A DNA stretch of 64,000 nucleotides. It comes from Methylococcales bacterium (lineage in GTDB: Bacteria; Pseudomonadota; Gammaproteobacteria; Methylococcales; Methylomonadaceae). A model generated the notes under the pieces. That model had not been told where the DNA came from. It did no database searches and saw only the letters and a list, made by a program, of their open reading frames with translations. The position numbers and the translations under genes were made by a program. The stretch lies in assembly GCA_028707085.1 (NCBI GenBank), contig JAQTUW010000001.1, positions 121,030 to 185,029 on the forward strand, read 5' to 3'. The stretch's first letter is position 1, and each line of letters begins with the position of its first letter. Of the stretch, positions 5,527-48,300 are shown one piece after another.

Positions 5527-6075
5527 TCAGTCGAAAACCTCGGCGTCGGCGAAGCTAAGGGCTTCCAGATCCTTGGCGGACAATGACGGCGGTTCCGGCA
5601 ACGGCCACTGGATATTGATCTTCGGGTCGTTCCAGATGATGGCCCGGTCATACAGCGGGGCGTAGTAGTTGGTGGTTTTGTACAGAAACTCCGCCGTTTC
5701 CGACAGGGTGACAAAACCGTGGGCGAAACCTTCCGGTATCCACAACTGCTGTTTGTTTTCCGCGGTGAGGATGGCGCCGGCCCATTGCCCGAAAGTCGGG
5801 GAGCTTTTGCGGATGTCCACGGCGACATCGAACACTTCGCCCTGGGTAACCCGCACCAGCTTGCCTTGCGCCATGGGCGGCAACTGGTAGTGCAAGCCTC
5901 TGAGTACGCCTTTGCGGGATTTGGAATGGTTGTCCTGCACGAACTGGCGCTGTAGACCGGTCAGTTCTTCAAAAACCTTGCCGTTGAAGCTTTCGAAAAA
6001 AAATCCCCGCTCATCGCCGAATACTTTGGGTGTCAGTAGTATGACGTCGGGTATGGAAAGTCTGGTTGCCTGCAT
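5527..6075 (-). CDS. rfbC: dTDP-4-dehydrorhamnose 3,5-epimerase
   Basis: 182 residues, the usual length for RmlC/RfbC. The enzyme epimerises C3 and C5 of dTDP-4-keto-6-deoxyglucose, the third step in making dTDP-L-rhamnose. The cupin fold is marked by GDERGFFFESF near residues 20-30, the catalytic histidine in GVLRGLHYQ (His62), the conserved FDVAVDIRKSSPTFG stretch around 82-96, and the PEGFAHGF and YKTTNYYAP segments with the catalytic tyrosine at about 132. Its ATG shares the A of the upstream rfbA stop codon (TAATG), which points to coupled translation. It is the last gene of the rfbBDAC operon. Confidence 0.95.
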   Translation of the reverse strand: MQATRLSIPDVILLTPKVFGDERGFFFESFNGKVFEELTGLQRQFVQDNHSKSRKGVLRGLHYQLPPMAQGKLVRVTQGEVFDVAVDIRKSSPTFGQWAGAILTAENKQQLWIPEGFAHGFVTLSETAEFLYKTTNYYAPLYDRAIIWNDPKINIQWPLPEPPSLSAKDLEALSFADAEVFD

Positions 6076-6986
6076 TAGAACACCTGTTGTTTAAGTAAGC
6101 CGAGCAAGTACTGGCCGTAATTGTTTTTGGCGAGCGGTTGCGCCAGTTGTTCGATTTTTTGGTCGTCTATCCATCGGTTCCGCCAGGCGATTTCTTCCGG
6201 GCAGGCGATTTTCAGGCCCTGGCGGGTCTCTATGGTGGCGATGAAATTGCTGGCCTCGATCAGGCTTTCGTGCGTGCCGGTATCCAGCCAGGCATAGCCG
6301 CGGCCCATGATCTCGACGCTAAGCTGCTGTTGTTCGAGATAGATGCGGTTGACGTCGGTAATTTCCAGTTCGCCGCGAGGCGAAGGTTTTAAATCGGCGG
6401 CGATATCGACCACCTGATTGTCGTAGAAATACAGGCCGGTGACGGCGTAATTACTTTTGGGCTGCAACGGTTTTTCCTCCAGGGAAACCGCTTTGCCCTG
6501 GGCGTCGAAACTGACCACGCCGTAGCGTTCCGGATCGTGGACATGGTAGGCGAATACCGTGGCGCCGCTGCTTTGGAGGGTGCTGTTTTGCAATTGCAGA
6601 TGCAGATCGTGGCCATAGAAAATATTGTCGCCCAGCACCAGCGCGCTGGGGTGGCCGCCGATAAAATTCCGGCCGATGATGAAGGCTTGCGCCAGCCCGT
6701 CCGGACTCGGCTGCACGGCGTATTGCAGATTGACGCCCCAGTCGCCGCCGTCGCCCAGCAGATGCTGGAACAGCGGGATATCCTGCGGGGTGGAGATGAT
6801 CAGGATGTCGCGGATACCGGCCAGCATCAGGGTGCTGAGCGGGTAATAAATCATGGGTTTGTCGTAAATCGGCAGCAACTGCTTGGAGATGGCCTTGGTG
6901 ACGGGATAGAGCCGGGTGCCGGAGCCGCCGGCCAGTATAATGCCTTTACGCGAAAGTAGGGGGAGATCAGTGGCTGATTGGGTCAT
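6075..6986 (-). CDS. rfbA: Glucose-1-phosphate thymidylyltransferase
   Basis: 303-residue enzyme joining dTTP and glucose-1-phosphate to give dTDP-glucose, the entry step to dTDP-L-rhamnose. The nucleotide-binding signature GGSGTRLYP occurs at about residues 20-28 and is followed by the [16 protein letters not shown] segment; LGDNIFYG (Mg2+-binding Asp) and [10 protein letters not shown] are also present. A start at 6986 (MTQSATDL) is preferred because a TGGAAC box lies just upstream; an in-frame ATG four codons earlier (6998) is possible. About ten residues precede the first beta strand, slightly more than usual. It is separated from rfbD by about 110 bases and overlaps rfbC by one base. Confidence 0.95.
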
Positions 6987-7098
6987 ACGAAGTTCCATTT
7001 TGGCTATAAACCGGTTAAGTTCGCAACCGACTGTCGCCGGTCGCGCAGTATGTCTGATAATCCGCCTCGAAGTTTAGCATGTTGCCCGGGCGGTTGTC

Positions 7099-8046: not shown

Positions 8047-9114
8047 TCACGCCTGGCGGTCGGCATAGTTTTTATTGACCCAGTCGCGATAGCCGCCGGA
8101 CTGGACATTGGCGACCCAGTCCTGATGCTGCAAATACCAGTTTACGGTTTTACGGATGCCGGTTTCGAACGTTTCCGCCGGTTTCCAGCCCAGTTCGCGC
8201 TCGATTTTACTCGCGTCGATGGCGTAGCGGCGGTCATGGCCCGGCCGGTCGGTCACATAGCTGATCTGTTCGCGGTAACTTTTTCCGTCCTCGCGCGGGC
8301 GGAGTTCGTCCAGCAGGCTGCACACCGTATTGACGATTTCAATATTGGGCTTTTCGTTCCAGCCGCCGACATTATAGGTTTCGCCGAGTTTGCCGCCGGC
8401 CAGCACGCAACGGATGGCGCTACAGTGATCGCCGACATACAGCCAGTCGCGAATCTGCTGGCCATCGCCGTAGACGGGCAGGGCCTTGCCGGCCAGGGCG
8501 TTGACGATCATTAGCGGAATCAGTTTTTCCGGAAAATGGTAAGGGCCGTAGTTGTTGGAGCAATTGGTGGTCAGCATTGGCAGGCCGTAGGTGTGGTGGT
8601 AGGCGCGCACCAGATGGTCGCTGGCGGCTTTGCTGGCCGAATAAGGACTATTGGGTTCGTAGCGGTGGGTTTCGGTGAAGGCCGGCTCGTCCCTGGACAG
8701 GGAGCCGTACACTTCGTCGGTGGAGACGTGCAAAAACCGGAAAGCCGGCCTGGCGTCGCCTTCAAGCCGGTTCCAGTAAGCCCTGACGCTTTCCAGCAGG
8801 CGGAATGTGCCGACGATATTGGTCTGAATAAAGTCTTCCGGCCCGTGTATGGAGCGATCCACATGGCTTTCTGCGGCGAAATTGACGATGACCCGAGGCT
8901 GGTGGCGCTCCAGCAGGCTGGCGACGAGGGCGCTGTCGCCTATGTCGCCGTGTACGAAAACATGCCGGGGATTGGCGGCCAGCGTGGCCAGATTTTCCCG
9001 GTTGCCGGCATAGGTGAGGGCGTCGAGATTGATAACGGCTTCGTCATGCCGCGCCAGCCAGTCCAGCACAAAATTTGAGCCGATAAAGCCGGCGCCGCCT
9101 GTAACTAGAATCAT
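8047..9114 (-). CDS. rfbB: dTDP-glucose 4,6-dehydratase
   Basis: 355-residue extended SDR enzyme that oxidises, dehydrates and reduces dTDP-glucose to dTDP-4-keto-6-deoxyglucose using tightly bound NAD+. The start at 9114 ([12 protein letters not shown]) is chosen because the NAD loop GGAGFIG then sits at residues 6-12 as in the family and an AGGA box lies nine bases upstream; the longer frame adds 32 unrelated residues. STDEVYG and the YSASKAASD catalytic Tyr/Lys motif are present, as is the [11 protein letters not shown] segment. It is the first gene of the rhamnose operon, whose promoter should lie in the 300-base gap upstream. Confidence 0.96.
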
Positions 9115-9416
9115 ATGATCATCCTGATTTGTCGGTATTATCTGGTAATGGAATTTGGAACGGAAAGCCGGGGCCTGCGCAGCATCCCCATAGTGCTTAA
9201 ATACTAACAAAACACCTGTAAAAAAGCTTCTAGATTTGCAATTATATAGCTGGAATCACAAAAAACCAGTTTTGCGGCTTGGATACCCGTCGGTTTGATC
9301 GTTCCAAATTGGTCGGCTCCCGAAACCGGGAAAGCGCTGATTCGACAAAATTTCCCTTTATTCTCAGCCGGATTTGAGACACTATTGCCACAACCGGGCC
9401 TGATGGAAAAACTACC
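9115..9416. promoter_or_regulatory. Divergent intergenic region of rfbB and the EEP-domain gene
   Basis: About 300 bases between two divergent units, AT-richer than the flanks (for example around 9195-9250), and so the likely home of both promoters. A minus-strand open frame at 9242-9514 overlaps the start of the plus-strand gene and matches nothing I know. No convincing -35/-10 pair or operator repeat was picked out by eye. Confidence 0.4.
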
Positions 9417-10889
9417 ATGTCGGATATTATCCAGTTACTGACTGTCGAGAACAGCGCCAGCCGCAGCAAAAGGCCGGCGCGGCAGCATATGTCCTTTTTG
9501 CTGCTGGTGGCCAATCTGGCCTACCAGAAACAGGTGGACATCGTCTGGTCGGGCAACGACGGCGTCTGGCGAACCCTGCCCGCCAAATATCTCACCGACA
9601 GGGGAGACGGCCACGAATACTGGCAGGCCGGGATCACCCTGTGCGGCGAAGCGGACGCACCGCTGCCCGGCGTCATCCGCTTCGCCGCGCGTCTGCGCTG
9701 TCTGGATCAGGAATACTGGGACAACAATCAGGACGAAAACTATACCTGCCTGCCCAACACCGGGGTTATGCTGGCTTGGCCGCTGGCGGTACAAAACCTC
9801 AGCTTCGACAGAACGCTGGCGGATGGCCAGCACTGGCTGAACCTGAAGATTGCCGTCAACAACTGGTTTGCCGCGGAGAATGTGGTCGTGCACTGGACGA
9901 CGGATAACTGGCTGCACGTCCATCAAGCCCATTGTCGGCCCGGCAGACAGGGCAGACGCAGTAGCACCCGGATCTGGACGGCGCGGCTGCATGCCGGCGA
10001 GGCTTTCCGGCTGCAGTACGCCATCTGCTGCGAAAACCCGCTACAGGAAGTCTGGGATAACAATGCCGGCCAGGACTATGTCCTCAGCCGCCGGCCGCTG
10101 AAAGTGCTGATCCTCAATCTGCACTGCTATCAGGAAGACCGCCAGGACGAAAAGTTCAGCCTGATCGCCAGAGTCATAGACGAACAGGCGGTAGACGTGG
10201 TCTGCTTTCAGGAAGTCGCCGAACACTGGAATGACGGTCAGGGCGACTGGCTGTCCAACGCCGCCCATATCATCAACCAGCGCCTCAGCCAGCCTTTCAA
10301 TCTGTACACCGACTGGTCGCACATCGGTTTCGGACGTTACCGCGAAGGGGTGGCCATCCTCAGTCGCCATGCCCTGCTCGACAGCCAGTCCCGCTATGTT
10401 TCGGACAACGCAGACATCCACAGCATTCATTCCCGCAAGGTGGTGATGGTCGGCATCGATCCGCCCTACATGGGGCCGGTCAACATATTTTCCGCGCATC
10501 TAAGCTGGTGGGAAGACGGATTCCGGGAACAGTTCCAGCGGCTGTGCGAATGGGCGGACAGCCTGCGAACCACCGCGCCCGGCGCGACCCTGCTGTGCGG
10601 CGACTTCAACATCACCGCCGGTTCGGCGGGCTACCGGCAGGTGGTGGAGGCAAACCGGTACGACGACCAGTATCTGGCCGTCAACGCCCAGGGCCTGTTT
10701 GAAAACATCTTTCGGATCGACGACCCGCACTGGCGCGATTATCCGGCGGACGATTACCGCATCGATTATATTTTCATGAACAGAGACAGCACCTTGCGCG
10801 CCGTCGCCGCCAGAGTGCTGTTCACGGAATGGGATTACGGTCAGGTATCCGATCATTGCGGCTATCTGATGACATTTGAACCGCAATAA
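9417..10889 (+). CDS. Two CBM21-like modules fused to an endonuclease/exonuclease/phosphatase domain
   Basis: 490-residue protein without a signal peptide or membrane segment. The first 225 residues are beta-rich and carry the same short motif twice: EYWDNNQDENY at 99-109 and EVWDNNAGQDY at 211-221. This WDNNxxxxY form is the hallmark of CBM21 starch/glycogen-binding modules, including the glycogen-targeting subunits of eukaryotic PP1. From about 228 to 490 there is an EEP-fold (DNase I-like) domain with FQEV (Glu266), SAHLSWW (His361), GDFNIT (Asp396, Asn398), RIDYIF (Asp450) and SDHCGY (Asp479-His480), so the metal-binding and catalytic set looks complete. EEP enzymes cut phosphodiester or phosphoester bonds in nucleic acids, phosphoinositides or sphingolipids. 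A PLD-family gene follows after 17 bases. The fusion suggests targeting of a hydrolase to a polymer; the substrate is unknown. Confidence 0.75.
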   Translation: MSDIIQLLTVENSASRSKRPARQHMSFLLLVANLAYQKQVDIVWSGNDGVWRTLPAKYLTDRGDGHEYWQAGITLCGEADAPLPGVIRFAARLRCLDQEYWDNNQDENYTCLPNTGVMLAWPLAVQNLSFDRTLADGQHWLNLKIAVNNWFAAENVVVHWTTDNWLHVHQAHCRPGRQGRRSSTRIWTARLHAGEAFRLQYAICCENPLQEVWDNNAGQDYVLSRRPLKVLILNLHCYQEDRQDEKFSLIARVIDEQAVDVVCFQEVAEHWNDGQGDWLSNAAHIINQRLSQPFNLYTDWSHIGFGRYREGVAILSRHALLDSQSRYVSDNADIHSIHSRKVVMVGIDPPYMGPVNIFSAHLSWWEDGFREQFQRLCEWADSLRTTAPGATLLCGDFNITAGSAGYRQVVEANRYDDQYLAVNAQGLFENIFRIDDPHWRDYPADDYRIDYIFMNRDSTLRAVAARVLFTEWDYGQVSDHCGYLMTFEPQ

Positions 10890-10906
10890 AGGCTTTACAC
10901 AGCACC

Positions 10907-12499
10907 ATGCAAGTAGCAGAACAGTATGCAAGACCGGTTTTTGCCCGGCTGGGCGGATATTTTCAACGCAGCAACGACTTTAAGGAAGTTTTCGATATCC
11001 GCTGGGGCAGGATCGAATTCGATCTCAACTACGGCATGTCGGCCAATTTAAAAGTCATTTTAAAAGTCTACCGGGACAATCTTTGCGAGACCTTCATCAC
11101 CGATACCGATCCCTACGACATTCAGTGGAACAGCCACAAACGCGGCACCCGCGATTTTTACATCCATTTCGATTCCCGGCATTTCGGCAAAATCAATTGC
11201 GTCAAGTTCGCCTTTATCGTACATATCGGCGAACATTCCATAGCCTCGCGACAGGAATATATCTTCATGGACTGGCATCAGCTCCAGGACGATCGCCCGC
11301 AGCAGCGAACCGTCAGCGCCGAACACGCCACGCCCAACCATTACCGCAGCCATGAACTGAATCCGCAGCAACTGCAAGGCGACGTGGACTGGTACAACCA
11401 CCATTTCGAATCGCTTAACCTCACGCCCAAATTTACCAAGGGCCAGCAATATCATCCCTACCATCCCAAACGCTATATCCACGACCACATCGACAAGGTC
11501 ATCGCCGGCAAGCACGCCGACCCGCACCGCCTGTGCACCATCAAGGTCAGTGTGGACTGCATAGACGATCACGACTTCATCAACCATCTGCTGCACGCCC
11601 ATCAGCAGCAGGTGCTGGTGCAATGCATCGTCGATTGGCGGAAAATGACCCTGACCAACAGCCATACCTACGCCCGGCTCAAACGTTCGGGCGTCGAGCT
11701 GCTGGGGGTATTCTGCACCCCCAAGCATCATCTGATAGAAGTCGAACCGGACATGCACACCAAATTCATCATTTTTAACGACGAAGACGCCATCATCGGT
11801 TCCTTCAACATCACTTTCGACCGCTGGTGGGCAAACTGGGAATCCGGCATGACCTTTCATTCACAGGGCGTGTGCCGGCTGCTGGACAATATCTTTCAGA
11901 GCCAGCGCGGCGGGCTGGTGCAAAAATACGGCGTCGATCCGCTCAGTCCCTTCAATCTGCTCTACACCTTCGGCCGGCAGACCATGGCCAACGGCAAGGT
12001 TTACCGCCCGCATCACGCCATCCTGGCCGAAATCCACCGCGCCCGGCACAGCATCAAAATCTGTCTGTTTCTGATAGGCGATTTACTCGGCGATTACCAT
12101 GACAGCGTCATCAACGCCCTGATCCAGGCCGCGCAACGCGGTGTGGCCGTGCACGGCCTGTTCAACGGCCATTTGGCCAGACAGGGGCGGATCGGCGTGG
12201 AGCGCGCCATGCCCGAAGAACTGGAACGGCCGCTGCTGCCCGCCGTCCAGCGCCTCAAGGACGCCGGCATTCCGGTCGGACTGGTATACGGCCAGGACGA
12301 CCTGCCGGTGCCTTATTCGCCCATCCATTCCAAATATTGCGTGATAGACGACTACATTGTCATAGAAGGCAGTTTCAACTGGTACAACACCTCGGTGTTC
12401 TCCCACGATCTGGTCATCGTCGCCGCCAACCACGAAGTCGCCAAACCCTATCTATACGAATTCGACCAGATCCAGCGCGAGTTCAGAGTGTTTTATTGA
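10907..12499 (+). CDS. Phospholipase D-like protein with two HKD motifs and a beta-rich N-terminus
   Basis: 530-residue soluble protein. Residues 1-125 alternate short beta strands (for example GRIEFDLNYG, KVILKVYRD, CVKFAFIVHIG) and look like an immunoglobulin- or CBM-type sandwich, though I cannot name the family. Two PLD catalytic halves follow: HTKFIIFNDED with GSFN (His284, Lys286, Ser299, Asn301) and HSKYCVIDDY with GSFNW (His474, Lys476, Ser489, Asn491). Two HKD motifs in one chain are what a PLD active site needs. The superfamily includes phospholipases, nucleases and phosphatidyl-transferases; no signal peptide or membrane anchor is seen, which favours a cytoplasmic nuclease or phosphodiesterase. 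It starts 17 bases after the EEP gene with an AAAGG box, so the two are almost surely co-transcribed. Confidence 0.8.
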   Translation: MQVAEQYARPVFARLGGYFQRSNDFKEVFDIRWGRIEFDLNYGMSANLKVILKVYRDNLCETFITDTDPYDIQWNSHKRGTRDFYIHFDSRHFGKINCVKFAFIVHIGEHSIASRQEYIFMDWHQLQDDRPQQRTVSAEHATPNHYRSHELNPQQLQGDVDWYNHHFESLNLTPKFTKGQQYHPYHPKRYIHDHIDKVIAGKHADPHRLCTIKVSVDCIDDHDFINHLLHAHQQQVLVQCIVDWRKMTLTNSHTYARLKRSGVELLGVFCTPKHHLIEVEPDMHTKFIIFNDEDAIIGSFNITFDRWWANWESGMTFHSQGVCRLLDNIFQSQRGGLVQKYGVDPLSPFNLLYTFGRQTMANGKVYRPHHAILAEIHRARHSIKICLFLIGDLLGDYHDSVINALIQAAQRGVAVHGLFNGHLARQGRIGVERAMPEELERPLLPAVQRLKDAGIPVGLVYGQDDLPVPYSPIHSKYCVIDDYIVIEGSFNWYNTSVFSHDLVIVAANHEVAKPYLYEFDQIQREFRVFY

Positions 12500-12654
12500 T
12501 GCCGGCCGGCTTGGCAAGGTTAAACAAAAACGGCATGCCTCGCACATTCGCAGGACATAGCCGCCGATATATCGAACAAAATTTATCAGGATTTGCTAAG
12601 GTAGGTTCTTAAAAAATATTTTACCGGCTAGGATAGATGTGACCGGACAACCCC

Positions 12655-14538
12655 TTACTGCATGGCCTCCAGCGCATCCCATCTGGCGTAGGCTTTCGCC
12701 AGTTCCGCCTCGTAGCCCTGCAATTGAGCCAGCGCGGCGGAGGTGACATCCTGCGCCTGCTTGTAAAACTCCGGATCATTGATTCGGGCGGTCAGTTCGG
12801 CCTGCAGGTTTTCCAGTTCTTCGATCCGGGCCGGCAACCCTTCCAGCTCACGCTGTTCGTTAAAGCTCAGTTTTTTGGCCGGCGCGGATTTGGGCTTTTC
12901 CTTTTTGACGCTGACCGCCGCCGCTTTAACCGCTTCGCTGCGTTTGGTCTGTTCGGACAAGGCAAACCAGTCGGCGTAGCCGCCTATGTATTCATTGACC
13001 AGTCCGTCGCCTTCGAACACCATCACGCTGGTGACCACGTTATCCAGAAACGCCCGGTCGTGGCTGACCAATAACAGCGTACCCTGATAATCCACCAGCT
13101 TTTCCTCCAGTATTTCCAGGGTTTCCAGATCCAGGTCGTTGGTGGGTTCGTCCATCACGATCAGGTTGGCGGGCTTGGTGAACAGCCTGGCCAGCAGCAA
13201 ACGGTTTTTCTCGCCGCCGGACAGGCTTTTTACCGGCGACCGAGCCCGGGCCGGGGCAAACAGAAAATCCGCCAGATAGGACATCACATGGCGTTTGCCC
13301 TCCGGGGTATCGACAAATTCGCCGCCGTCCAGCACGGTGTCGGCCACCGAGATTTCCGGGTCTAGCTGTTCGCGCAATTGGTCGAAATAGGCGATTTGCA
13401 GATTGGTGCCCAGCTCCACCGTGCCGGCAGTAGGCTGCAATTGTCCCAGCAACAACTTCAGCAGAGTGGATTTGCCGGCACCATTGGCGCCGATCAGGCC
13501 GATTTTATCGCCGCGTTCGATGCGGGTGGAGAAGTTGCGGATAATGACTTTATCCTGATACTGGAAGCTGACATCGACCGCTTCAATCACCTTTTTCCCG
13601 GACGATTCGCCGGCGTTCAGTGACAGTTTGGCCGTACCCTGGCCATTACGGCGTTCGGCGCGTTCCTCCCGCAGCCTTTTCAGGGCTCGCACCCGGCCCT
13701 CGTTGCGAGTGCGGCGGGCCTTGACGCCCTGTCTGATCCAGACTTCCTCCCGGGCCAGCTTTTTGTCGAACTCGGCATTCTGATTGGCCTCGTCCTCCAG
13801 CACTGCCGCCTTGCGGCGCAGATAGTCCTGATAATCGCCCGGCCAGGAAGTGAGTTGGCCGCGATCCAGATCCAGAATTCGGGTGGCCAGTTTTTGCAGA
13901 AAGGCCCGGTCATGGGTGACGAACAGCACAGCGCCCTGAAAAGCCAGAATCTGTTCTTCCAGCCAGGCGATGCTTTCAAAATCCAGATGGTTGGTCGGTT
14001 CGTCCAGCAGCAGCACTTCCGGTTCTATCACCAGCGCTCGCGCCAGCGCCACCCGGCGTTTCCAACCGCCGGACAGGCTGCTGACCCTGACATCGGCCGG
14101 CAATTGCAGCTTGCTGAGCACGGCTTCCACCCGCTGTTCAAAAGCCCAGCCGTTCAGGGCTTCCAGCTTATGCTGCACATCGCCCAGTTCCTGTAACGAG
14201 GCTTCGCCGCCATCCATGTGCGCCAGCAGTTCGTGATAACGGACGATCAGTTTGCCCAGTTCCCCCAGGCCGCCGGCCACCGCATCGTAGATGCTGTCGT
14301 CGCCTTCCAGGTTGGGCGACTGTTCCAGCCAGGCCAGTCGCAATTCCGGCTGCCGCCAGATTTCGCCATGATCGGCGTGTATGTCGCCGGCGATGATTTT
14401 CATCAGCGTGGATTTGCCCTCGCCGTTGCGGCCCAGCAGGCCGACCCGTTCGCCGGCGTCGAGTTGAAAGGCGGCATTGTCCAGCAGAGCGTGCGTACCG
14501 AAAGCGATGGAAACATTGTTTAAGCGAATTAAGGGCAT
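12655..14538 (-). CDS. uup: ABC-F family ATPase Uup
   Basis: 627-residue protein with two ABC ATPase domains and no membrane part: Walker A loops GRNGEGKST (near residue 36) and GANGAGKST (near 346), ABC signatures LSGGWKRR and LSGGEKNR, and Walker B regions ending LLDEPTNHLD and VMDEPTNDLD. The C-terminal 80 residues, after a Lys/Pro-rich linker, form a coiled coil, the Uup-type DNA-binding tail. ABC-F proteins act on ribosomes or nucleic acids; E. coli Uup affects precise excision of transposons and responds to branched DNA. Its ATG lies inside the 3' end of the cinA-like gene (10-base overlap), so it is the third gene of an AEC permease-cinA-uup unit. Confidence 0.93.
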   Translation of the reverse strand: MPLIRLNNVSIAFGTHALLDNAAFQLDAGERVGLLGRNGEGKSTLMKIIAGDIHADHGEIWRQPELRLAWLEQSPNLEGDDSIYDAVAGGLGELGKLIVRYHELLAHMDGGEASLQELGDVQHKLEALNGWAFEQRVEAVLSKLQLPADVRVSSLSGGWKRRVALARALVIEPEVLLLDEPTNHLDFESIAWLEEQILAFQGAVLFVTHDRAFLQKLATRILDLDRGQLTSWPGDYQDYLRRKAAVLEDEANQNAEFDKKLAREEVWIRQGVKARRTRNEGRVRALKRLREERAERRNGQGTAKLSLNAGESSGKKVIEAVDVSFQYQDKVIIRNFSTRIERGDKIGLIGANGAGKSTLLKLLLGQLQPTAGTVELGTNLQIAYFDQLREQLDPEISVADTVLDGGEFVDTPEGKRHVMSYLADFLFAPARARSPVKSLSGGEKNRLLLARLFTKPANLIVMDEPTNDLDLETLEILEEKLVDYQGTLLLVSHDRAFLDNVVTSVMVFEGDGLVNEYIGGYADWFALSEQTKRSEAVKAAAVSVKKEKPKSAPAKKLSFNEQRELEGLPARIEELENLQAELTARINDPEFYKQAQDVTSAALAQLQGYEAELAKAYARWDALEAMQ

Positions 14539-46810: not shown

Positions 46811-46830
46811 AATTATTGAGGATTAATGCC

Positions 46831-48300
46831 ATGCAACTGCAAGATCTATTCCCGCTCCTGCCCCAGGATTACGTTTATTTATTCCAGGAACTTTTTATCC
46901 AGTGTTACCGGTTTGCAATCGGCAACCCCTTCGTCGCCGGGACGCTGGTGGTCTCGGTCTGGCTGCTGACAACCATTTTCTACAGCATCCGCATCGGCAT
47001 TTTGCGCAGTCGGCTGCGCATGCAGACTAAAACCGCACAGGAAACCCAGACCGCCCTGGACGCCGCCCGCGAACAAAATCAGCAGTTGCAGGCCGATATC
47101 GGCGTCCATCTGCAACAGGTGGAACTCGAACAGCAGCGCGGCATGGCACTACAGGAACGCATCGCCGAACTGGGCGGACAGATGGCGGAAGGCATCGTGG
47201 CCCTGGCTTCCAGGCCGGAACTGGGGCAGCAGGGGCTGAGCGTTACCCCGGATTTGCAGCCGGAGCATCTCTGGCAGCGTTTTCACGCCGCAGTTAAACA
47301 TCTCGGCGAAAAACTGGTTGCGGAACAAAAAACCAGCGGCGAATTACAGCAGGCGGTCAGCGAGGAAGCGGCGAAGCTGGCGGAAAAAAACCTGCAGATG
47401 CAGGCCCTGCAATTTCGGTTCGACAGCCAGAAACAGCAGCTTGCCAGGCTGGAAGCCGGCATGGAGGAGCAGCGTCAGCAACTGGCTCAACAGCAGGAAG
47501 CCTTGCAAACCCAGCTCGCCGAACTGGAAAAACGCGGCCAGCAGCAAAACGCGGTCGTTGCCGCCGAACAGGCTGCTCAGTCCGCCATGACCCAGCCAGC
47601 CGAACCGGCTGCGGCGGCGGAAACCGTAAGCCTGACGCAGGAAAAACAGGCGGCAATGCCGCAAACCCTGGCGGAAACCGTTTCCGAGCCGGCTGAAACC
47701 TCGGCTCCCGCCCCCGAAATCGCGAATCGGCAAAAACCGCAACCGGCCCCGGCCGAAGCGACGGCGCAGGCGGCCAAATCCGGACTGGGCGGCAAATTCA
47801 AAACCATGTTAGGCGGATCGGCGTCGAAAAAAGCCGCCAAACCGGGCAGGTGGGCCGCTGAAGCGCCGCTACCGCCGGCGGAAACGGCCGCCGCCGCCCC
47901 CGAACAAACCCTGGGCGGCCAACCTGCTCCCGCCGCCGAAGACCAACCGAAATCGGCGGTCGCGGCGGGCGGCATGTTTGGCGACGTCCGCCGGAAAATC
48001 GCCAAAATCGACGCCATGTTCGGCATGGGGCCCGCCGCTCCGGCGACGGAAACCGTACCTAAGCCTGAACCTGAACCGGCTGCCGAAACCGCTGCTTCCG
48101 GGGCGGGCGTGGAAGTCGCTGGCGGGCCGGTAGCGGAGACCGCCGACAAGCCAGCGCGGAGTCGCGGCTTCAAAATTCCGTTCGGTTCTGGTAAGAAACC
48201 GGCCGCCGAACAACCGGAAACCGTCGCTCAGAATGCGGCCGAAAAGCACGGCGGCGGCCAGCTCAAAGGTTTACTGGGCAAATTCAAGCGCAAGGGCTAG
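46831..48300 (+). CDS. Membrane-anchored coiled-coil protein of unknown function
   Basis: 489-residue protein of low complexity. A GAGG box nine bases upstream fixes the start at 46831 (MQLQDLF). One membrane helix is at about 34-55 (FVAGTLVVSVWLLTTIFYSI). Residues 65-250 are strongly helical and Gln/Glu/Ala-rich, a long coiled coil with a break near 115-150. The rest, about 250-480, is a disordered Ala/Pro/Glu-rich tail with three short basic/glycine segments of similar type: SGLGGKFKTMLGG, GGMFGDVRRKIAKIDAMFG and GGGQLKGLLGKFKRKG, the last at the C-terminus. These look like repeated docking or amphipathic elements. No enzyme motif was found. Its TAG stop codon is part of the CTAG that flanks a MITE-like insertion. 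Confidence 0.75.
   Translation: MQLQDLFPLLPQDYVYLFQELFIQCYRFAIGNPFVAGTLVVSVWLLTTIFYSIRIGILRSRLRMQTKTAQETQTALDAAREQNQQLQADIGVHLQQVELEQQRGMALQERIAELGGQMAEGIVALASRPELGQQGLSVTPDLQPEHLWQRFHAAVKHLGEKLVAEQKTSGELQQAVSEEAAKLAEKNLQMQALQFRFDSQKQQLARLEAGMEEQRQQLAQQQEALQTQLAELEKRGQQQNAVVAAEQAAQSAMTQPAEPAAAAETVSLTQEKQAAMPQTLAETVSEPAETSAPAPEIANRQKPQPAPAEATAQAAKSGLGGKFKTMLGGSASKKAAKPGRWAAEAPLPPAETAAAAPEQTLGGQPAPAAEDQPKSAVAAGGMFGDVRRKIAKIDAMFGMGPAAPATETVPKPEPEPAAETAASGAGVEVAGGPVAETADKPARSRGFKIPFGSGKKPAAEQPETVAQNAAEKHGGGQLKGLLGKFKRKG

Follow-up and report, generated by a model that had tools for sequence, protein, structure and literature searches.

The window analysed here, a 64,000-nucleotide stretch of the genome of a Methylococcales bacterium (family Methylomonadaceae; contig JAQTUW010000001.1), carries two adjacent genes that appear to act as one unit of glycogen metabolism in type I methanotrophs. 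Gene 1 encodes a 490-aa protein in which two CBM21 modules precede an endonuclease/exonuclease/phosphatase (EEP) domain. Gene 2, which begins 17 nt further along the common strand, encodes a 530-aa protein of the phospholipase D (PLD) superfamily. The link of this pair to glycogen is well supported. The more specific reading favoured here, which we regard as about an even call, is that gene 1 encodes a glycogen-anchored glucan-phosphate phosphatase and gene 2 a phosphodiesterase or phosphotransferase partner in the same pathway. The evidence drawn directly from this analysis comprises the domains, the conserved residues, the co-occurrence of the two genes, the glycogen-operon context in relatives and the nearness of the EEP domain to EEPs of phosphotransferase system (PTS) and alpha-glucoside loci. 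The features of the pair are as follows, the gene coordinates and the 17-base gap agreeing exactly with a first-pass annotation of the window.

9417..10889, + strand: gene 1, CBM21-CBM21-EEP protein (Pfam domains); found in 97 of the 151 genomes sampled from the family, partly as copies truncated at contig ends
9477..9746, + strand: CBM21 module 1 (PF03370, 35.4 bits, above cut-off; profile matches to glucoamylase A and PPP1R3A chains)
9711..9743, + strand: WDNN motif 1, residues 99-109 (W101 in 69/71 rows, D102 in 70/71, N103 in 69/71)
9822..10085, + strand: CBM21 module 2 (PF03370, 31.6 bits, above cut-off; profile matches to PPP1R3B and PPP1R3C)
10047..10079, + strand: WDNN motif 2, residues 211-221 (W213 in 65/71 rows, D214 in 68/71, N215 in 67/71)
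10098..10880, + strand: EEP domain, residues 228-488, MapP-like (PF03372; phmmer to 3teb, E 3.5e-23; kinship with EEPs of MapP loci)
10890..10906, + strand: 17-nt spacer between genes 1 and 2, which are probably co-transcribed
10907..12499, + strand: gene 2, two-domain PLD-superfamily protein of 530 aa (PLDc_2, E 3.9e-33)
11756..11779, + strand: first HKD-type motif, HxKx4N (H284, K286, N291), followed by GSFN; residues invariant in 63/63 rows
12326..12349, + strand: second HKD motif, HxKx4D (H474, K476, D481), followed by SFNWYN; residues invariant in 63/63 rows

A search for promoter-like matches on both strands of 9200-12700, a weak test, returned none.

The N-terminal half of gene 1 points to glycogen. 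The Pfam family CBM_21 matches the protein with E 3.8e-17 (63 bits against a cut-off of 28.9), and a genome-level search resolves two separate modules that each exceed the cut-off. These modules resemble one another (hhalign 95%), and a 71-row profile built from the window copy and 70 homologues matches the solved CBM21 chains of PPP1R3B, PPP1R3C, PPP1R3A and glucoamylase A. The two WDNN-type motifs from which the first-pass annotation had recognized the modules are largely conserved, and W160, W165 and W187 are invariant across the gene 1 alignment. The conserved aromatic and WxNN residues (W101, W213 and others) are presumably ligand-binding. CBM_21 is uncommon in the class, being found at E 1e-5 in one of 252 sampled genomes, that of the window itself, and in none of 14 controls.

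The EEP domain (Pfam Exo_endo_phos, E 2.2e-18, 67.2 bits against a cut-off of 24.5) has all the main catalytic residues that had been ascribed to it, as eight residues that we take to be catalytic (N234, E266, H361, D396, N398, D450, D479 and H480) are invariant in 71 of 71 rows. Its nearest solved chain, 3teb, is titled just endonuclease/exonuclease/phosphatase. The kinship that bears on function is with MapP, the maltose-6'-phosphate phosphatase of Enterococcus faecalis, which was reportedly studied by Mokhtari in 2013. In a small comparison, the window EEP is 27-30% identical to six MapP-type EEPs (E 9e-23 to 1e-25), while the E. coli EEPs YbhP, XthA and YafD match at 7e-10, 0.09 and 0.8, respectively; "MapP-type" here denotes a link to MapP by gene order and family name, and not to the assayed E. 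faecalis sequence. The proposal of two different phosphodiesterases in the pair thus finds no support for gene 1, whose EEP is nearer to MapP-type sugar phosphatases than to three E. coli EEPs that include the nuclease XthA. Eleven positions are common to the CBM21-EEP proteins (10/10) and the MapP types (at least 5/6) and absent from five outgroup EEPs, and E240, Q243, K246, H302, E310 and W439 are common to the window EEP and the MapP-locus EEPs.

These relatives are encoded beside PTS and alpha-glucoside genes, an arrangement that is also that of MapP. An excerpt of PMC3737437 places E. faecalis mapP downstream of malT and its product in the EEP family. Among plasmid-borne relatives, five annotated places were opened (Enterococcus, Lactococcus, Leclercia, Priestia and Cetobacterium, of which the Lactococcus and Enterococcus ones are near-identical), and in each the EEP gene immediately follows a PTS IIBC gene. 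Nearby are GH65 and beta-phosphoglucomutase genes in Enterococcus and Lactococcus, a beta-phosphoglucomutase gene in Priestia and an alpha-glucosidase gene in Leclercia and Cetobacterium; the region of a sixth relative, from Niallia, carries no annotation. Another family with small genomes, possibly the Pasteurellaceae, has such an EEP in 13 of 101 genomes, always directly behind an alpha-glucan phosphorylase gene and 9-11 nt from it. In the eight of these loci that were opened, a PTS IIBC-type gene follows the EEP (one Pfam-checked), a separate MalQ match lies ahead in five, and the phosphorylase frame reaches about 1,260 aa in three, being a MalQ fusion in the one checked. This 13-genome locus was dropped as a link to glycogen when the wider view showed a PTS locus, and it counts instead as MapP-type evidence. 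The row of alpha-glucan phosphorylase, EEP and PTS IIBC-type genes (L203-L210) possibly contains an unannotated mapP.

A further relative that consists of an EEP alone (34-41% identity) is present in many methanotroph genomes. At the four loci opened (L162, L163, L164 and L165, at about 8-9.5 kb in each), this paralogue lies outside glycogen loci and is devoid of the MapP-type Q243 and K246. Six of the eleven shared positions (E240, Q243, K246, S359, L393 and G405) are missing, wholly or almost, both from these paralogues and from another relative, EEP_G167. In the EEP tree, CBM21-EEP proteins, MapP types, paralogues and EEP_G167 are split from XthA, YbhP and L177 at 88/88, across long branches that make the depth uncertain. 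The MapP types (97/98), the paralogues (99/100) and the CBM21-EEP proteins (100/99) each form a clade; the CBM21-EEP proteins fall outside the MapP clade, and the paralogues are their sister group at 87/81 in one tree. The tree was rebuilt without YafD and EEP_G012 and then also without XthA and own_L177, own_L175 having been dropped. A placement of YafD inside the CBM21-EEP group in the first tree was discarded on account of very long outgroup branches.

The glycogen link is carried mainly by gene order in relatives, where two arrangements recur. In arrangement A, genes for GlgX, a DUF4912 protein and a GH57 branching enzyme precede gene 1 and gene 2; in arrangement B, GlgB and GlgA genes precede the pair, and GlgC, a second GH57 and MalQ are encoded on the opposite strand. 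The GH57/BE_C, DUF4912 and second GH57 families were verified on representatives. Locus counts refer throughout to the best 80 of 153 loci found by the locus scan, and leaving aside six without a gene 1 match at threshold and nine ending within 0.8 kb gives 65 for the upstream count. Within 0.8 kb upstream of gene 1 and on its strand, these 65 loci have a GH57 branching-enzyme gene in 38 cases and glgA in 16 (54/65 together). Among the 56 loci that extend 2.5 kb or more in both directions, 48 contain a glycogen gene. Three genomes have the pair split (G366, G361 and G396); in each of them gene 1 keeps its GH57 branching-enzyme and DUF4912 neighbours, in two also GlgX, and gene 2 lies elsewhere (about 17 kb off in G361). 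No glycogen gene was found at the four EEP-only paralogue loci. Of the targets first put forward for the pair, glycogen is favoured by this operon context, while membrane lipid and foreign nucleic acid find no support in the neighbourhoods. In most arrangement-A loci (L066-L128) a DUF4912 gene immediately precedes that of the GH57 branching enzyme, which makes DUF4912 a possible glycogen-related domain. An excerpt of PMC10030640 describes two copies of branching enzyme in Methylobacter tundripaludum whose temperature patterns are opposed.

The two genes also travel together. Among 151 family genomes, 95 have both genes, two gene 1 alone, two gene 2 alone and 52 neither, and in all four single-gene genomes the gene lies at a contig end (Fisher p 2e-35, a value that ignores the kinship of the genomes). 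Matches to gene 1 occur in 98 of these genomes, in G422 through the EEP-only paralogue alone, and matches to gene 2 in 97. Gene 2 thus accompanies gene 1 in 95 of 97 family genomes (EEP-only paralogues uncounted), which agrees with the first-pass view that the two proteins act together and that their homologues should not be found mostly singly. The order gene 1, then gene 2 on a common strand is kept at 74 of the 80 loci, with 12-713 nt between the two; in two of these loci a contig end cuts gene 1. Five loci have no gene 1 in reach (L064, L069, L079, L124 and L138, with little upstream sequence in L079 and L124), and L121 has a gene 1 fragment 3.2 kb from gene 2.

In the samples searched, the pair occurs in methanotrophs of the Methylomonadaceae, in 22 of the 29 sampled genera of the family, and in Accumulibacter. 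Named organisms among the best 80 loci comprise Methylomonas, Methylobacter, Methyloglobulus, Methylovulum, Methylomicrobium, Methylicorpusculum, Crenothrix and unclassified methanotroph bins, together with three Accumulibacter genomes (L136, L137 and L140) and a "Pseudomonadota" bin (L127). The laboratory methanotrophs Methylobacter luteus (L087) and Methylomonas sp. LW13 (L071) are among the carriers of the cluster. The rows closest to the window copy are mostly Methylomonas. Gene 2 is found in 61 of 151 order genomes, each listed under the genus or family of the window; outside the host genome, it was found in none of 273 other class genomes (E 1e-10) and none of 397 other phylum genomes (E 1e-40), the latter sample overlapping the former. 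Two Accumulibacter copies nest among methanotroph copies in a quick tree with moderate support, which suggests that the pair was transferred between methanotrophs and Accumulibacter. Directly ahead of the pair, two Accumulibacter loci (L137:5325-7088 and L140:5656-7416) share a gene of a single cluster, a carbamoyltransferase by Pfam in L137.

Gene 2 consists of two PLD halves, with PLDc_2 matching above its cut-off in two stretches. Two intact HKD motifs had been claimed for it; the second is canonical (HxKx4D), and in the first N291 takes the place of the aspartate in 63 of 63 rows, so that the claim is not literally exact. The second half weakly resembles solved structures of a mitochondrial cardiolipin hydrolase (MitoPLD), a phospholipase and an endonuclease, and the first half bears a faint likeness to polyphosphate kinase across the family. 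The N-terminal 150 residues yielded zero matches to anything tried. In particular, they bear no likeness to either CBM21 module (hhalign probability 0.8 and 0.9%), and a CBM21-like head on gene 2 was rejected on this basis. The earlier notion of polymer-binding heads on both proteins thus stands for gene 1 and finds no support for gene 2, which has no recognizable head. Full-length family matches of gene 2 are 69-83% identical to the window copy, with 73-83% over the 62 other aligned rows, and its mean column identity (85% over 63 rows) exceeds that of gene 1 (70% over 71 rows). This stronger conservation suggests that gene 2 probably meets a fixed substrate or partner. Phage and plasmid traces amount to one weak phage match, one weak PHROG of unknown function and two weak plasmid matches of gene 2, so a phage origin of the pair has little to go on.

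The favoured reading can be cast as three steps. From the modules we infer that a cytoplasmic gene 1 protein is held on glycogen by its two CBM21 domains. There, its EEP domain would hydrolyse phosphate monoesters of the alpha-1,4-glucan, probably at C6, as MapP kinship and the conserved residues suggest. In the third and weakest step, gene 2 would supply the monoester, whether it opens a diester or transfers phosphate. Working through a phospho-enzyme at an HKD histidine, gene 2 would in the simplest version open a glucan phosphodiester first, and gene 1 would then remove the resulting monoester. Removal of phosphate would keep the chains accessible to the glycogen synthase and to the enzymes of branching and debranching whose genes lie alongside in relatives. 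The reading makes biological sense because the branching-enzyme gene is the commonest upstream neighbour and glucan phosphate reduces the substrate affinity of branching enzymes, one bacterial enzyme included (excerpt of PMC13011383).

Several observations weigh against this reading. As to gene order, 11 of the 65 loci have no glycogen gene just upstream, and 20 of the 80, many of them short, have none at all; seven (L136, L137, L140, L069, L093, L101 and L110) have none even though about 7 kb or more of upstream and 9 kb of downstream sequence is present, and at the three Accumulibacter loci among them none of the glycogen genes searched for was found. The sole chance baseline for the upstream counts is the four glycogen-free paralogue loci. 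Across 141 family genomes with glgA above cut-off, 45 are without the pair, and three genomes have the pair without such a glgA. The association of the pair with glgA is weak (p 0.03) and explains its presence poorly, hence the reliance on gene order. The window pair's own neighbours are not glycogen genes. As to the EEP, the identity to MapP types is just 27-30%, deep tree support is modest (88/88) with long branches, and the closest relatives are the EEP-only methanotroph paralogues and EEP_G167 (34-38% identity), none of them beside glycogen genes. The one PTS protein checked passes TIGR02003, a model with no named sugar, and fails the maltose models, so that "maltose" is a tentative label for the PTS locus. 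The literature matches listed, among them PMC8062543, PMC12892837, PMC8537180, PMC10323788, PMC3737153 and PMC8941000, as far as their excerpts extend, report no enzyme activity for the gene 1 protein and no phosphate measurement on methanotroph glycogen; nor do the matches listed report a CBM21-EEP protein or this gene pair. No glucan-phosphorylating enzyme turned up, and no search was aimed at one.

The strict co-occurrence of the two genes would also suit an opposed pair, in which a PPK1-like gene 2 phosphorylates glycogen via phosphohistidine, with polyphosphate or a nucleotide as donor, and gene 1 dephosphorylates it, as a bacterial counterpart of the GWD/SEX4 cycle. In its favour, PP_kinase_C (Pfam) is matched by 62 of 63 gene-2 rows at E <=0.01 (best 5.2e-7), hhalign sets E. 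coli PPK1 in register with gene 2 over 208 columns, and PPK1 resembles gene 2 in being without the PLD aspartate at the place aligned to motif 1. The pair also occurs in Accumulibacter, which is known for polyphosphate and glycogen. The hhalign probability is just 11%, however, and the PP_kinase_C match spans about 55 of 172 positions; among ten gene-2 rows scanned singly, one exceeds the curated cut-off (L128, 27.0 against 25.8), whereas the window protein stays below it (17.5 against 25.8). NCBIfam poly_P_kin gives 10.4 bits against a cut-off of 465.85, Pfam detects neither the N-terminal nor the nucleotide-binding domain of PPK1 in gene 2, and the second half resembles MitoPLD and an endonuclease. 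An opposed pair is therefore unlikely, and unlikely to the same degree is a bacterial reversible glycogen-phosphorylation cycle that evolved independently of plant GWD/SEX4 and animal laforin and passed between methanotrophs and Accumulibacter. Since EEP and PLD folds commonly cleave phosphodiesters, the EEP could instead be a phosphodiesterase or pyrophosphatase that is bound to glycogen and acts on its precursors, for example on ADP-glucose, or on a signalling nucleotide to tune flux into glycogen, with gene 2 as a second phosphodiesterase. The position of glgA directly ahead of gene 1 in 16 of 65 loci would fit. Yet the nearest EEPs with informative context lie in PTS and alpha-glucoside loci and not in nucleotide pathways, and E. 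coli XthA and YafD are matched no better than noise, which leaves this reading rather unlikely.

A catalytically minor scaffold, which would recruit branching and debranching enzymes to glycogen as PPP1R3 recruits PP1, would account for the CBM21 modules, the PPP1R3 module itself, and for the co-location with those enzymes; the invariance of the presumed catalytic EEP residues in 71 of 71 rows makes it quite improbable. In E. coli, the EEP gene ybhP adjoins the HKD gene clsB (L184:4499-6498), and a comparable lipid-side couple could tie glycogen granules to the membrane or remodel the membrane. The window EEP is weakly YbhP-like and a phospholipase is among the weak solved matches of the second PLD half, but the EEP is far nearer to MapP types, the operon context in relatives is that of glycogen, and gene 2 matches ClsB at just E 0.033 (blast). 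A ClsB/YbhP-type lipid pair was rejected on the weakness of both likenesses (7e-10 and 0.033), and the reading is very improbable. Least credible of all is an anti-phage nuclease pair made up of an HKD nuclease like DrmC of DISARM and an EEP nuclease. Weak DrmC-model matches of gene 2 (5.9e-9 and 1.3e-10) and its nuclease-like second half speak for such a pair; the DrmC score of 35.8 bits is far below the cut-off of 133, on which ground a role in defence was rejected. Six further window proteins scanned include none of DISARM, gene 1 has no PADLOC match, the pair is spread over most sampled genera of the family, and CBM21 would be left without explanation.

In the window, the pair is flanked by rhamnose-type genes on one side and an ABC ATPase gene on the other; the former were named from sequence, and 8047-9210 and 6075-6998 were checked by family search. 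Rhamnose-type genes also adjoin the L168 (G344) cluster, where the full GlgX/DUF4912/GH57/pair series is followed by them on the opposite strand, in a genome that is 99% complete and has no glgA match. The glycogen genes of the host genome lie on other contigs: contig 44 has MalQ-GH57-GlgC/GlgB-GlgA, and contig 54 has GlgX/DUF4912-GH57 branching enzyme (MalQ, GlgC, GlgB, GlgA and GlgX each above an NCBIfam cut-off). The first-pass annotation could not see the glycogen link because the window pair is far from these genes. Elsewhere in the window, 46816-48300 holds a 494-aa open reading frame with zero Pfam matches at 1e-8, adjoining the gene of a GtrA-domain protein.

If the phosphatase reading is true, gene 1 would give bacteria an equivalent of the human enzyme whose absence leads to Lafora disease, and the pair would matter for the engineering of methanotrophs, in which carbon is stored as glycogen. 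A conserved pair that resembles a glycogen phosphatase of another fold, lies beside branching-enzyme and glycogen-synthase genes and occurs in cultivable methanotroph hosts makes the proposal directly testable.

Among known systems, MapP shares with gene 1 the EEP family and an alpha-glucoside context. The MapP-locus EEPs stand alone beside PTS genes, whereas gene 1 combines its two CBM21 modules with an HKD partner and, in relatives, with a place in glycogen operons; lying there beside glycogen genes and not a PTS gene (malT), it is not classed as MapP. Gene 2 belongs with the HKD superfamily of MitoPLD, Nuc-type endonucleases and PPK1, its second half weakly like the first two and its first half faintly like the last, but it forms its own family in the samples searched, with an HxKx4N first motif and the unmatched N-terminus. 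The E. coli ybhP-clsB couple likewise joins an EEP gene to an HKD gene, though ClsB acts on lipids and neither protein is close in sequence to its counterpart here. The PPP1R3 subunits of PP1 share with gene 1 the CBM21 module and, as proposed here, the targeting of a phosphatase to glycogen; PPP1R3 targets a protein phosphatase from a subunit of its own, while gene 1 has catalytic domain and CBM21 on one chain. Laforin- and SEX4-type glucan phosphatases carry CBM20 or CBM48. With laforin and SEX4/LSF2, the eukaryotic glucan phosphatases, gene 1 would have in common the plan of a glucan-binding module joined to a phosphatase and the proposed job. Laforin and SEX4 are dual-specificity (DSP) phosphatases (excerpt of PMC13011383), whereas gene 1 is bacterial and combines EEP with CBM21, Pfam finding an EEP and no DSP domain. 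The likeness is thus one of proposed function alone, between unrelated folds.

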